This document shows positions 3,843 through 19,107 of a stretch of DNA of 20,648 bases, in pieces (position 1 is the first letter of the stretch; every line of letters begins with the position of its first letter). The notes beneath the pieces are model-generated. The model ran no database searches. It had not been told where the DNA came from and was given only the letters and a program-made list of their open reading frames with translations. The position numbers and the translations under genes are program-made. The stretch covers positions 1-20,648 of the IMG/VR virus record IMGVR_UViG_3300005528_000251. One strand, 5' to 3'. The DNA is from a virus.

Positions 3843-4475
3843 TCATTCATTATCATAAAACATTCTATCAGAGTCTTCAGTTTTCCACTTATCTTGATCT
3901 TCTACATTATAGAATTCACTACATACTAAATAATCTGGCTTAGCTGGGAATGGCTTAGTAACAAAGCTAGGCTCTGACCACTTAATCCTATTATTAGGTT
4001 GTAGTGCTATCTGTCCATTATCTAATACTATAATATGATGTGACTTATGTTCAGATGGATCTTCTGCAAGTGTGATATCTGTATTAATATCATTTGACCC
4101 CCAGTTGATTGTAGCAAAGTACTTACCCGGGTACCACTTTCTATCCTTCATATAAACTTCTACAGGAGCTTCTGCTACATAATTTAACTCAAGTAAAGTA
4201 AAGTTATATGAGAAGCAGTTCCACAGTTGTAGATAGTGAAAGGGTAGATCTGGATTTGGGAGAATAGGTTTAGTAAGTAAAGCATGAGAAGGAAGCTTAT
4301 CCCGGAGTACACCATTCTCTAGTAGCACTTGAAACAAAGCAGCCTGCCCAGGCATACACCTAACTGATACTATAATCCCAGGAGTAAACTGACCCTTACC
4401 CTTAATATGCTGGTACATATATTCATCTCTAACAAATACTTTTAACGGGAAGAAGTTATGTTCTATATAAGCCAT
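3843..4475 (-). CDS. Conserved phage protein of unknown function, 210 residues
   Basis: 210 residues, rich in aromatic residues and Pro, mostly beta in character. Recognisable stretches are a basic N-terminal start (MAYIEHNFFPLKVFVRDEY), FTPGIIVSVRCMPGQAALFQVLLENGVLRDKLP, LQLWNCFSYNFT, YPGKYFATINWG and LQPNNRIKWSEPS. This pattern resembles an uncharacterised protein I associate with marine and other tailed phages; I know of no assigned role. It starts 5 bases after the peptidase stop, so the two are co-transcribed. A virion-associated role is an inference from neighbours only. It ends with a terminator about 50 bases downstream. Confidence 0.8.
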   Translation of the reverse strand: MAYIEHNFFPLKVFVRDEYMYQHIKGKGQFTPGIIVSVRCMPGQAALFQVLLENGVLRDKLPSHALLTKPILPNPDLPFHYLQLWNCFSYNFTLLELNYVAEAPVEVYMKDRKWYPGKYFATINWGSNDINTDITLAEDPSEHKSHHIIVLDNGQIALQPNNRIKWSEPSFVTKPFPAKPDYLVCSEFYNVEDQDKWKTEDSDRMFYDNE

Positions 4476-7113: not shown

Positions 7114-7123
7114 CCTCAATAGA

Positions 7124-7165
7124 CAATACACCCTATACTGATTACAGTGTAGGGTTATTGTTTTT
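7124..7165 (+). terminator. Strong rho-independent terminator
   Basis: CAATA plus ACCCTATACTG (7124-7128, 7130-7140) pair with CAGTGTAGGGT plus TATTG (7145-7160), giving 16 base pairs with one bulge, a tetraloop ATTA, and then TTTTT. Confidence 0.9.
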
Positions 7166-7171
7166 ACTTTT

Positions 7172-7193
7172 AAGCAGACTTCGTCTGCGGCTT
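7172..7193 (+). repeat. Hairpin element followed by GGCTT, copy 2
   Basis: GCAGAC TTC GTCTGC stem-loop followed by GGCTT, 6 bases before AACAGCTC copy 8. Against copy 1 the stem has changed T-A to G-C and G-C to A-T, with pairing kept. Confidence 0.65.
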
Positions 7194-7199
7194 ATAGTT

Positions 7200-7207
7200 A
7201 ACAGCTC
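7200..7207 (+). promoter_or_regulatory. AACAGCTC motif, copy 8, with no gene directly behind it
   Basis: Reads AACAGCTCTAAAC, like copy 4. No start codon with a useful frame follows for about 300 bases, so if this is a promoter its product is mainly RNA. Confidence 0.5.
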
Positions 7208-7500
7208 TAAACAGGGTGGGTATGTAGGGCTTGGTCAATACATGGTCAGCATATACTATTGTATTCTATAGTATTCTATTGAAGGTATACAAACTTCAAT
7301 AAGATTTAGAGAGAGCTAACTAATTGATAATCAACCATCCCTAATCCAAAATAGTCTTGGTCAATAGCATCAATTGTTATACCATCTCAGACTATAATTT
7401 AAGAATATGGCTATTAATACTATATATACTCTCTTATATTACTCTATATAGAAACATAGCCTCATTCACCGCAGAATTGTATTTTCTAACCCTTATAATA
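7208..7500 (+). ncRNA. Untranslated stretch, possible second structured RNA
   Basis: This stretch has no gene on either strand that I can support. The direct repeat CTTGGTCAATA occurs at 7230-7240 and 7356-7366. Candidate helices are GGGTGG (7214-7219) with CCATCC (7335-7340), ATTGAAG (7278-7284) with CTTCAAT (7294-7300), AATTGAT (7322-7328) with ATCAATT (7369-7375), and GGCTAT (7409-7414) with ATAGCC (7456-7461). Some of these exclude one another. No terminator is obvious before the gene at 7512, so it may be a long leader rather than a separate RNA. Confidence 0.35.
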
Positions 7501-7511
7501 AACTTATAGAT

Positions 7512-7685: not shown

Positions 7686-7699
7686 ACACGGGCTCTTTT
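7673..7699 (+). terminator. Rho-independent terminator overlapping the stop codon
   Basis: AAAGAGCC (7673-7680) pairs perfectly with GGCTCTTT (7691-7698); the stop codon is in the loop; the tail is short (TTTTG). Confidence 0.75.
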
Positions 7700-7736
7700 G
7701 TACGTTCTTATTAACCCTTATAATATATACTCAATT

Positions 7737-7982
7737 ATGATTAAGCAAAGAATCCTCACCGCATTAGTACTTGCTATAGGTACTTATGCCCTTGTTATTA
7801 CAGCAGTATTAGCAAATCAGTATTATGGTCATGAGCCTATTAATATGGATCCACCATCTATTAAGACAGAATACTTCTTAGAAGTTTCTGAAGATAGTAT
7901 TAGAATTGAATCACTTTATGGTAAGGTGTACACAGGTAAGTACTCCGATTTAGATTCTCTGATTTCAGTAGATAATTTGTAA
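7737..7982 (+). CDS. Small membrane-anchored or secreted protein
   Basis: 81 residues from the ATG at 7737 (MIKQRILTALVLAIGTYALV). The frame opens upstream at 7698, but that would place the start inside the terminator. Residues 6-25 form one hydrophobic segment, a signal anchor or signal peptide, followed by a polar, Ser- and Asp-rich domain of about 50 residues (YFLEVSEDSIRIESLYGKVYTGKYSDLDSLI). The C-terminal domain would face the periplasm. The same upstream element as the previous gene (AACCCTTATAATA) lies about 20 bases before the start. Family unknown. Confidence 0.75.
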   Translation: MIKQRILTALVLAIGTYALVITAVLANQYYGHEPINMDPPSIKTEYFLEVSEDSIRIESLYGKVYTGKYSDLDSLISVDNL

Positions 7983-7989
7983 TACTATT

Positions 7990-8498
7990 TCCGTTATCCT
8001 AAGCATGATACAAAAATGCTTACTCTCATCCAAGCAGGATAACATATTACCAATGGGCTTATGATGCTCAAAATGTTGGATGTATGTTATGCATAGTCAA
8101 GGGTTGCAACCTTGTGAGAGTACTAATCAAACGTAACGTGGAACAACTCATGAAAGCATAATGAGCCATATCTACAGGAGTTAGGCATTTGGAATCTACG
8201 GTATTTATACCTGGGGATTTTATGACTTTATACTGTAGTAGTAATGCACCATTCCTGATTCCCAAGGTCAGGCAGTTGTAGCGCAGATGATAGATGTATG
8301 TATATGACACATACTACCTTGAAGGGTTACAACTGAGTGCAGAGGGGTTATCCTTCTTATTTATTTTAACCAGGCACAATCATGACTCTTAGTGCCAACC
8401 TACCTAGGGAGTTGAGTTACCCGACTTATTATGAGAACTAAAAAGATTGTCCGTTTATAGTGCGGGGCTGTGAAGATCTGGAAGCCAACACTATTTTT
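7990..8498 (+). ncRNA. Candidate large structured RNA of about 500 bases
   Basis: Between two rightward genes lies more than 550 bases with no supportable frame and more G and C than its surroundings. Helices read by eye: 7993-8000/8036-8043 (GTTATCCT/AGGATAAC); 8001-8005/8017-8021; 8022-8033 with 8076-8082 plus 8117-8121; 8098-8102/8110-8114; 8147-8151/8161-8165; 8185-8189/8243-8247; 8196-8204/8230-8238 (9 pairs); 8263-8267/8317-8321; 8273-8280/8328-8335 (CAGTTGTA/TACAACTG); 8296-8301/8309-8314; 8346-8350/8367-8371; 8373-8377/8392-8396. Some cross, implying pseudoknots. It ends in a U-tract hairpin. Size and ornate folding recall phage RNA classes such as ROOL and GOLLD, but I cannot assign it to either. 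Confidence 0.65.
8457..8498 (+). terminator. Terminator hairpin of the candidate RNA
   Basis: ATAGTG (8457-8462) pairs with CACTAT (8489-8494) and GGCT (8466-8469) with AGCC (8483-8486), followed by TTTTTCTT. It separates the RNA from the gene at 8539. Confidence 0.7.
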
Positions 8499-8538
8499 CT
8501 TACTGTAACTTAATTAATAACTTATAAATCAACTCAAA

Positions 8539-9324
8539 ATGAAAATTCATTTACACTCAAGACAAGGTCTTTATGAAGTAGAAGGCTACAATAATAAAAT
8601 TATTACAGTATCTACTAAGCGTTTTACATTCCAAGTACCAGTTGATGATTTTAAATCATTTGGAGGTGGTAATTGGAACTTCAATGTATCTAAAGAAGAG
8701 ATGGATATATTTCTATCTATAGTTCAACCTGAAAAATACAAGAAACAGGTTGAAATGGAAAATGAAATCTTATCTCTTGCTAAAAGAATAGATATGATTG
8801 ATACACCTGTAACTACACCTGTAGTAGAAGAAGATGTAGATGATGATATCTATGATCCTATGGAGCCTACCAAAGAAGAATATGAAAAATGGTGGAGACA
8901 AGAAGCTGATAAGAATACTCAATTGAACAATAAGATCAGATCTATTGCTCATCAAGTATATTCTCAGAATCTTGACTTTAGCAACTTTCAGAATCACAAG
9001 GGTATTAAATTCATCATACAATTAAACCATGATGAAACAGAATATAGATTCTGTTGGGATCCATATGGATTTGTATCTAATGGTCACAGTGATATTAGTA
9101 GCATCTTTAGAGCAGATGATTTTTACACTGTTAATGGTGGTTGGATTAAAATCATTGGTAATGATGTAATCTTATATGCCAAATCAGGTGATTATGGTGT
9201 CTATGATGATGCTATTGCTACTGAATGTGCAAAGAAAGTATTTCCTACAAAGAAAATATATTCATTTGCAGGCAGACAATGGGATGAAGAACTTGAGAGT
9301 AAATTCTTTGAGATCCCATTTTAA
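8539..9324 (+). CDS. Hypothetical 261-residue protein with EIPF tail
   Basis: 261 residues. The N-terminal 75 residues are beta-rich (MKIHLHSRQGLYEVEGYNN, then ITVSTKRFTFQVP). A very acidic linker follows (EEDVDDDIYDPMEPTKEEYEKWW, about 93-115), then a C-terminal domain with many aromatics (about 150-255). The last residues are SKFFEIPF, similar to the SSB-type C-terminal peptide (acidic residues, then I/L-P-F) that docks replication and repair proteins; the gene at 11831 ends the same way. It is transcribed from AT-rich sequence downstream of the RNA terminator. No known family recognised. Confidence 0.8.
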   Translation: MKIHLHSRQGLYEVEGYNNKIITVSTKRFTFQVPVDDFKSFGGGNWNFNVSKEEMDIFLSIVQPEKYKKQVEMENEILSLAKRIDMIDTPVTTPVVEEDVDDDIYDPMEPTKEEYEKWWRQEADKNTQLNNKIRSIAHQVYSQNLDFSNFQNHKGIKFIIQLNHDETEYRFCWDPYGFVSNGHSDISSIFRADDFYTVNGGWIKIIGNDVILYAKSGDYGVYDDAIATECAKKVFPTKKIYSFAGRQWDEELESKFFEIPF

Positions 9325-10374: not shown

Positions 10375-10661
10375 ATGCTTGATAACAGAAGTTTTCTTTA
10401 ATCAGGGTTAAGTCCCTTATTTAAAAATGTTATAAGAAATATTAACTAAAACCGCTTCTCTTCAAACTTTATAAAACTGAGATAGAACTCATCATCAGAC
10501 AGGTTACTCCAAAGTAAGATAACTGGCTGGTACTTGAGACTTAGTATTTGTATTTGCCTTTGAATGAAGAGAAGGTCTTTGACTTAGTATTTGTATTTAA
10601 CATTAACTATATACTTCTGTTATCAAGTAACTAATTATTAAGAACTTAAATTAAAAACAAT
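10375..10661 (+). promoter_or_regulatory. Untranslated region with long-range helix and 18-base repeats
   Basis: No gene fits in this stretch. CTTCTCTTCA (10455-10464) and TGAAGAGAAG (10565-10574) are perfectly complementary over 10 bases, enclosing about 100 bases that include TTACT CCAA AGTAA. The sequence GACTTAGTATTTGTATTT occurs twice, at 10538-10555 and 10581-10598; a similar TTATTTGTATTT lies before the gene at 12410. The repeats look promoter-like, and the helix may be part of a leader or small RNA. The region precedes a run of small genes starting at 10662. Confidence 0.4.
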
Positions 10662-19010: not shown

Positions 19011-19085
19011 GGGTCTGTAGCATAACTGGATAATGCAACACTCTTCTAAAGTGTAGATTGATGGGTTCGAATCCCTCCAGACCCT
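19011..19085 (+). tRNA. tRNA-Arg (anticodon UCU)
   Basis: Acceptor GGGTCTG/CAGACCC (7 pairs); D arm GCAT/ATGC; anticodon stem ACACT/AGTGT with loop CTTCTAA, hence anticodon TCT; T loop TTCGAAT; discriminator T; no encoded CCA. It reads AGA and AGG, the main Arg codons in this window. The T stem is weak: ATGGG against CCCTC has only three pairs, with T-T and A-C mismatches. It is a complete, probably functional gene, the only tRNA in the window. Confidence 0.93.
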
Positions 19086-19107
19086 CTTTAATCCCTAAAT
19101 AAATAAT

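Follow-up and report, generated by a model that had tools for sequence, protein, structure and literature searches.

The DNA analysed here, referred to below as the window, is a stretch of 20,648 nucleotides making up positions 1 to 20,648 of an IMG/VR virus record (IMGVR_UViG_3300005528_000251). Between the rightward ORFs at 7698-7982 and 8539-9324 lies a stretch, 7983-8538, that contains a single ORF of at least 50 amino acids, on the minus strand and unsupported, in agreement with the gene-free gap that a preliminary description had recognized between two rightward genes. That description had further interpreted the gap as one large ornate RNA of the GOLLD or ROOL kind, based on numerous complementary segments, some of them long-range, a pseudoknot and a U-tract hairpin at the end. 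The segments that it named do exist (GTTATCCT at 7993-8000 with AGGATAAC at 8036-8043, CTACGGTAT at 8196-8204 with ATACTGTAG at 8230-8238, and CAGTTGTA at 8273-8280 with TACAACTG at 8328-8335), as does the crossing pair of CAAGG 8263-8267 with CCTTG 8317-8321, but as a count they carry no weight: complementary 5-, 7-, 8- and 9-mers in the gap show no excess over dinucleotide shuffles (for 8-mers, 5 observed against a shuffle mean of 4.0). The minimum free energy of the whole gap is ordinary (z -0.84, with 21 of 100 shuffles equally stable), and an Rfam cmscan of the window at gathering scores, covering 4227 families, placed no family in the gap. Owing to these chance-level complementary words, the ordinary folding energy and the lack of an Rfam family, the claim of a structured RNA in the gap would fail on the sequence of the window alone.

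The picture changed with the inclusion of relatives, which were reached via the proteins downstream of the gap and comprised dozens of IMG/VR contigs. Aligned to these, the gap resolves into conserved blocks that occur in varying combinations. Pattern scans recovered 38 stretches for one block and at least 120 stretches for each of two patterns of another, and from the relatives we extracted at least 81 distinct copies of a unit termed A and at least 155 of a unit termed B; the broad searches started from patterns specific to A or B, and all copies apparently come from one group of related uncultured phages. As judged from these comparisons, what the gap holds is a series of small, exchangeable RNA units, A, C, B and E, with an end hairpin, and not one large RNA; the units are about 50-110 nt in size and evolve separately (Table 1). 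The alignments show A, B and E as compact, pseudoknotted frames formed on the + strand. The row is preceded by a small hairpin directly after the upstream gene, and relatives have a TGAGCATGA..AAAACTGCTCA hairpin in the same place. At the other end the previously noted U-tract hairpin is indeed present (8457-8494, followed by the T run) and is a probable terminator or the last unit, while the AT-rich leader sequence beyond it recurs ahead of genes in related phages.

Table 1. Positions of the RNA units and associated features in and around the gap (window coordinates)
Feature	Position	Strand	Remarks
Small hairpin AAGCAT/ATGCTT	8001-8020	+	after upstream gene; sequence and relatives
Unit A	8021-8122	+	at least 81 copies; closing stem 8021-8028/8115-8122
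A variable inner domain	8039-8097	+	families; own covariation
A hairpin	8098-8114	+	CAAGG-GTTGCAA-CCTTG
A pseudoknot	G8034, C8035, A8036 with C8107, G8106, U8105	+	loop with GCA near 5' end
Unit C	8126-8238	+	hairpin 8196-8204/8230-8238; putative fold
Unit B	8242-8347	+	at least 155 copies; model match 8244-8346 (window copy included in model)
B P1	8245-8249/8337-8341	+	seen in relatives
B P2	8254-8258/8268-8272	+	near-invariant loop 8259-8267
B P3	8273-8282/8326-8335	+	carries variable insert
B pseudoknot	C8261-C8263 with G8344-G8346	+	loop CCC with tail GGG outside P1
Unit E	8373-8422	+	8 aligned copies
E hairpins	8373-8377/8392-8396 and 8407-8409/8420-8422	+	sequence alignment
E loop-loop pseudoknot	8383-8388/8414-8419	+	double changes
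End hairpin ATAGTG..CACTAT, then T run	8457-8498	+	sequence; conserved in relatives
AT-rich leader ahead of next gene	8504-8538	+	repeated blocks in relatives

The best sampled of these units, B, has a core of 61 nt consisting of a closing stem (P1), a hairpin (P2), an insert-bearing stem (P3) and a pseudoknot between the hairpin loop and the 3' tail. A comparison of the copies showed that: 1) the P2 loop reads UUCCCAAGG in 150 of 155 copies. 2) P1 changes from UGCAC/GUGCA to UGUAC/GUACA in 13 copies, with the U.G intermediate present in 5. 3) One position of P2 is occupied by four different types of pair, and the four inner pairs of this helix are each formed in at least 154 of the 155 copies. 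4) P3 starts with CAGUUGUA/UACAACUG, beyond which comes the insert; this stem is the CAGTTGTA/TACAACTG helix of the preliminary description, which is conserved in relatives. 5) The conserved pseudoknot joins C8261-C8263 to G8344-G8346 and differs from the crossing CAAGG/CCTTG helix described before; the latter is present in the window and in L041, but its CCTTG half is missing in L035 and most other copies of B. The conserved pseudoknot underwent two separate double changes in L178, to CAC/GUG in one copy and to CCA/UGG in another, and in L072 a C-to-A change lacks a compensating change in the partner. In 24 diverse frames 96.6% of the cells pair, 12 of 23 pairs show changes on both sides, and the number of double-changed cells was reached by no shuffle; sliding the partners by one to three columns lowers pairing to 30-48%. 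In a tree-aware test, in which substitutions were randomly re-placed on a FastTree tree of 120 distinct frames, five column pairs were significant, all five of them in P2. Since P1, P2 and the eight pairs with which P3 starts together hold about 30 G.U as against 1 A.C, the + strand is the strand that folds.

The third stem of B accepts unrelated inserts of 25 to approximately 235 nt, which fall into 113 families among 136. The stability of these inserts is hardly higher than that of control sequence (z -0.9 versus -0.6), and for this reason they may be tolerated rather than selected. At the other extreme, the copy at L178:2540 spans 61 nt and has its P3 wholly replaced (CAAGAU/AUCUUG) with P1, P2, P3 and the pseudoknot all kept, and is the minimal core of B. 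L011 and L086 contain a B-like unit that is closed by a longer stem, AATACACCA/TGGTGTATT, and whose P2 loop is the short TTA in place of TTCCCAAGG. In L009 a gene for a GIY-YIG homing endonuclease with a NUMOD1 domain lies inside the P2 loop of a B (3889-4461), with partial B sequence flanking the gene on both sides, and the block pattern of L010 is alike.

Unit A is likewise built as a frame around a variable part. The frame comprises a stem of 7-8 pairs that closes the unit, the two strings CCAA and GCAGG, and the hairpin CAAGG-GUUGCAA-CCUUG, whose loop enters the pseudoknot. Changes on both sides are seen in 7 of 17 pairs, a number found in 0 of 500 shuffles; every helix has at least one double change (e.g. 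ACUCUUG/CAAGAGU in L054 and L175), and the pseudoknot changed jointly to GUA/UAC in L060 and L177. The tree-aware test has no power on this frame, which is too conserved. The inner domain falls into families, 37 among 77 inserts, and the family of the window shows covariation of its own. Directly after A, L004, L070 and L074 have a unit, AATAAGTAG...AAAGGATCGCAACCTTTTTACAGAGTACTACTACTTATT, with the core string of A and a different closing stem. In unit E both the first hairpin and the pseudoknot helix show double changes among the 8 copies, the latter being UGACUC/GAGUUA in the window and UAGUUC/GAACUA in others. For unit C just 3 distinct copies were found, and these are near-identical.

Several observations bear on whether these units belong to one molecule. 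Among 20 records chosen for their B, 16 lack A, and among 17 chosen for their A, 4 lack B; in L021 A is absent, with clean joints, between the small hairpin and the unit C that flank it in L016. More generally, the content and order of units differ among relatives, with units being gained, lost and exchanged one at a time, and no conserved long-range helix joins them in the relatives compared. The long-range pairing of GTTATCCT with AGGATAAC, real as a match of letters, connects what are two distinct units, and none of the relatives inspected has an equivalent. GOLLD and ROOL are each a single RNA, ~600-800 nt long or longer, and assemble into cages (PMC12286853). The units of the gap resemble them in being phage-encoded, pseudoknotted, of undetermined function and devoid of a protein reading frame, but are mostly ~50-250 nt long and vary in order and number, and in the relatives compared they do not make up a contiguous RNA of several hundred nucleotides with a fixed order of helices. 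Neither the cmscan of the window nor a further one of 7900-8600 at E<=5 matched GOLLD or ROOL, the latter scan returning only a chance-level snoRNA match (E 2.4). Hence, one large RNA of that kind spanning the gap is highly improbable despite the total length of ~500 nt, the probable terminator at its end and the phage origin: its supposed parts vary independently, A and B are found singly, no Rfam family matches and no conserved helix ties the units together.

What stands of the earlier proposal is an undescribed structured phage RNA: alignment of the homologous gaps yields clear covariation for the frames of A, B and E, and these have no match in Rfam. The suggestion of a possible new class holds as regards undescribed folds, though as several small units and not one RNA. 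Structured phage RNAs as such are already known. Named phages contain no match to the gap or to the composite frame of B, and contigs of cellular genomes none to the pattern of A. A loose B pattern hit 40 stretches of cellular contigs, estimated to be about the number expected by chance, only one of which, on a 4.6-kb MAG contig (L328), shows both the P1 and the P2 portion of the unit. Model R1 had no hit among 198 genomes from the phylum to which Flavobacterium belongs, an empty result that is weak evidence. We found no description of these RNAs in the literature searched; large motif catalogues compiled from viral contigs may include them with no function assigned. A, B and E thus represent structured RNA families that are new relative to Rfam, named phages, plausible cellular genomes and the literature reached.

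About 2 kb downstream of the gap a larger structured RNA of ~250 nt (10376-10629), which has no Rfam match in the cmscan of the window and contains the direct repeat GACTTAGTATTTGTATTT, occupies a fixed position right after a 303-aa gene and has 31 distinct homologs. Of its 50 predicted pairs 22 are changed on both sides, and 99.4% are paired, the structure having been predicted from the very alignment in which these were counted; the same holds for its 88 G.U as against 3 A.C. According to this prediction it would be a better candidate than the gap for the single larger RNA of the preliminary description. Upstream, another gap of ~400 nt (7114-7511) shows 78% conservation along 300 nt with a single related record, which appears as L064, L106 and L120.

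We also surveyed the genomic neighborhoods of these units. At distances of more than 4 kb upstream of B, ORFs on the opposite strand cover ~80% of the bases, and downstream ORFs are on the same strand as B; 65% of the 2 kb ahead of B is without an ORF of at least 80 aa, and the last opposite-strand ORF lies at a median of 2.4 kb from B, usually with 1-6 short ORFs between. This ORF coverage and distance from the strand switch locate B in a zone rich in non-coding sequence near the start of the rightward genes; in the window the strand switches near 5 kb and the GC skew changes sign near 5-6 kb. From their content and position we infer that the rightward genes near B are early. B is in sense with the genes downstream, its flanking ORFs being co-directional in most loci, A and/or B are usually present in one copy per genome in the records surveyed, and we found no case of A and B on opposite strands of one locus. 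The proteins downstream of B have 110 different N-termini, which argues that B controls no single gene.

This sense orientation near the strand switch, the usual single copy and the indifference to any particular gene would also fit units that act in cis, on the transcript as it emerges from the first part of the rightward block, for example by binding RNA polymerase and so suppressing termination, as putRNA does, or by shaping mRNA ends. The precedent is the putRNA of HK022, a structured RNA of ~70 nt downstream of the early promoters, which acts on the RNA polymerase of E. coli (PMC9378689). A and B share with it small size, the sense strand and a place near the early region, but putRNA is made of two stem-loops directly in the early leader, with no pseudoknot of the kind seen in A and B and no insert domain, traits that A and B do not reproduce. 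With 1-6 short ORFs usually separating B from the switch, units recurring between genes and ahead of terminator-like hairpins, and several unrelated kinds of unit with hypervariable inserts, which a cis element would not be expected to have, we regard this as improbable. Still less probable, indeed barely credible, is that the folds act as DNA, as hairpin recombination sites or part of an origin near the skew switch. The movement of units as cassettes, the nearby sign change of GC skew and the homing endonuclease gene in one P2 loop could be read in this way, but the sense strand tolerates G.U and not A.C, implying that both strands need not fold, the orientation is fixed with respect to transcription, and the loop-tail and loop-loop pseudoknots are RNA-like. 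The inverted ends also brought to mind integron-like attC sites and retron-like RNA, and we rejected both; neither a reverse transcriptase nor an integrase is among the few window proteins searched, and orientation and G.U bias favour RNA.

ARAGORN and Rfam detect no tRNA or tmRNA in the gap, the only one in the window being a tRNA-Arg at 19011-19086, ~10.5 kb away. As regards tRNA islands, near which GOLLD and ROOL are encoded, some related loci have single tRNAs. Across ~255 kb of related loci the only Rfam families found are tRNAs and Hatchet ribozymes (RF02678). Of 28 records searched, 5 carry a Hatchet, and each of these has it upstream of B, at a distance of up to ~1.5 kb and on the same strand; RF02678 has no match in the gap of the window, and in relatives its matches adjoin the units and do not lie inside them. 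In L296 the Hatchet starts just past the stop codon of a homolog of the 94-aa gene of the window, in the slot that the small hairpin and unit A occupy here. The Hatchets, at L039 3352-3488 and in L295-L299, belong to five uncultured phage records and have a variable inner arm like those of A and B. These associations make self-cleavage the main rival to free-standing RNAs: B, and perhaps A, would be a new class of small self-cleaving ribozyme with a replaceable insert, which a large group of uncultured phages would carry, together with Hatchet, in a zone of RNA cassettes. The architecture of B, a pseudoknotted core of 61 nt with variable arms and many bases that are invariant though unpaired, is one that small self-cleaving ribozymes typically have. 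Hatchet itself is similar in core size, variable inner arm, intergenic zone and strand, but differs in sequence and in the order of helices, and A and B do not match its model. Another precedent is provided by the HDV-like theta ribozymes, which occur beside phage tRNAs and are likewise small structured phage RNAs near other non-coding RNAs (PMC10879173); these adopt an HDV-like double-pseudoknot fold, whereas A and B are predicted closing-stem junction folds that generally do not adjoin tRNAs. We nevertheless consider a ribozyme unlikely, if less so than an action in cis: the argument is one of linkage, the Hatchet-bearing records are related and do not represent independent events, no site of cleavage can be recognized, A and B match none of the ribozyme families in Rfam, and a dispensable loop would not call for inserts as elaborate as these, with lengths of 25-235 nt and 113 families.

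We therefore place about even confidence in the remaining interpretation, that the units are free-standing structured RNAs released from a shared transcript. Under this proposal they would share a transcript with the short genes that lie between them, would be freed from it by processing, and would act as stable free-standing RNAs. The invariant frame would be the recognition or active core, formed in B by the UUCCCAAGG loop and the GAGGG tail and in A by CCAA-GCAGG and the GUUGCAA loop, with the insert as a replaceable arm. Our leading guess for the partner is a frame-binding protein of the host or the phage, serving takeover or the blunting of a defence. This free-standing reading draws on the covarying frames of A, B and E, their sense-strand folding and usual single copy per genome; on the lack of a single downstream gene, the mutual independence of A and B and the clean joints with and without A; and on the position past the strand switch, the diversity of insert families and the minimal version of B. 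Against it weigh the inserts, hardly more stable than control sequence, and the several units that directly precede gene leaders, which fits action in cis too.

If this is right, there would be at least three RNA folds (A, B and E) with pseudoknots supported by covariation and absent from Rfam 15, and B would offer more than 150 examples for testing, its 61-nt minimal version included. The design of a frame plus an insert, together with the cassette-like exchange, would set these units apart from the single ornate RNAs of phages. In addition, the linkage to Hatchet may provide a concrete route to asking what role such ribozymes and their neighbors have in phages.
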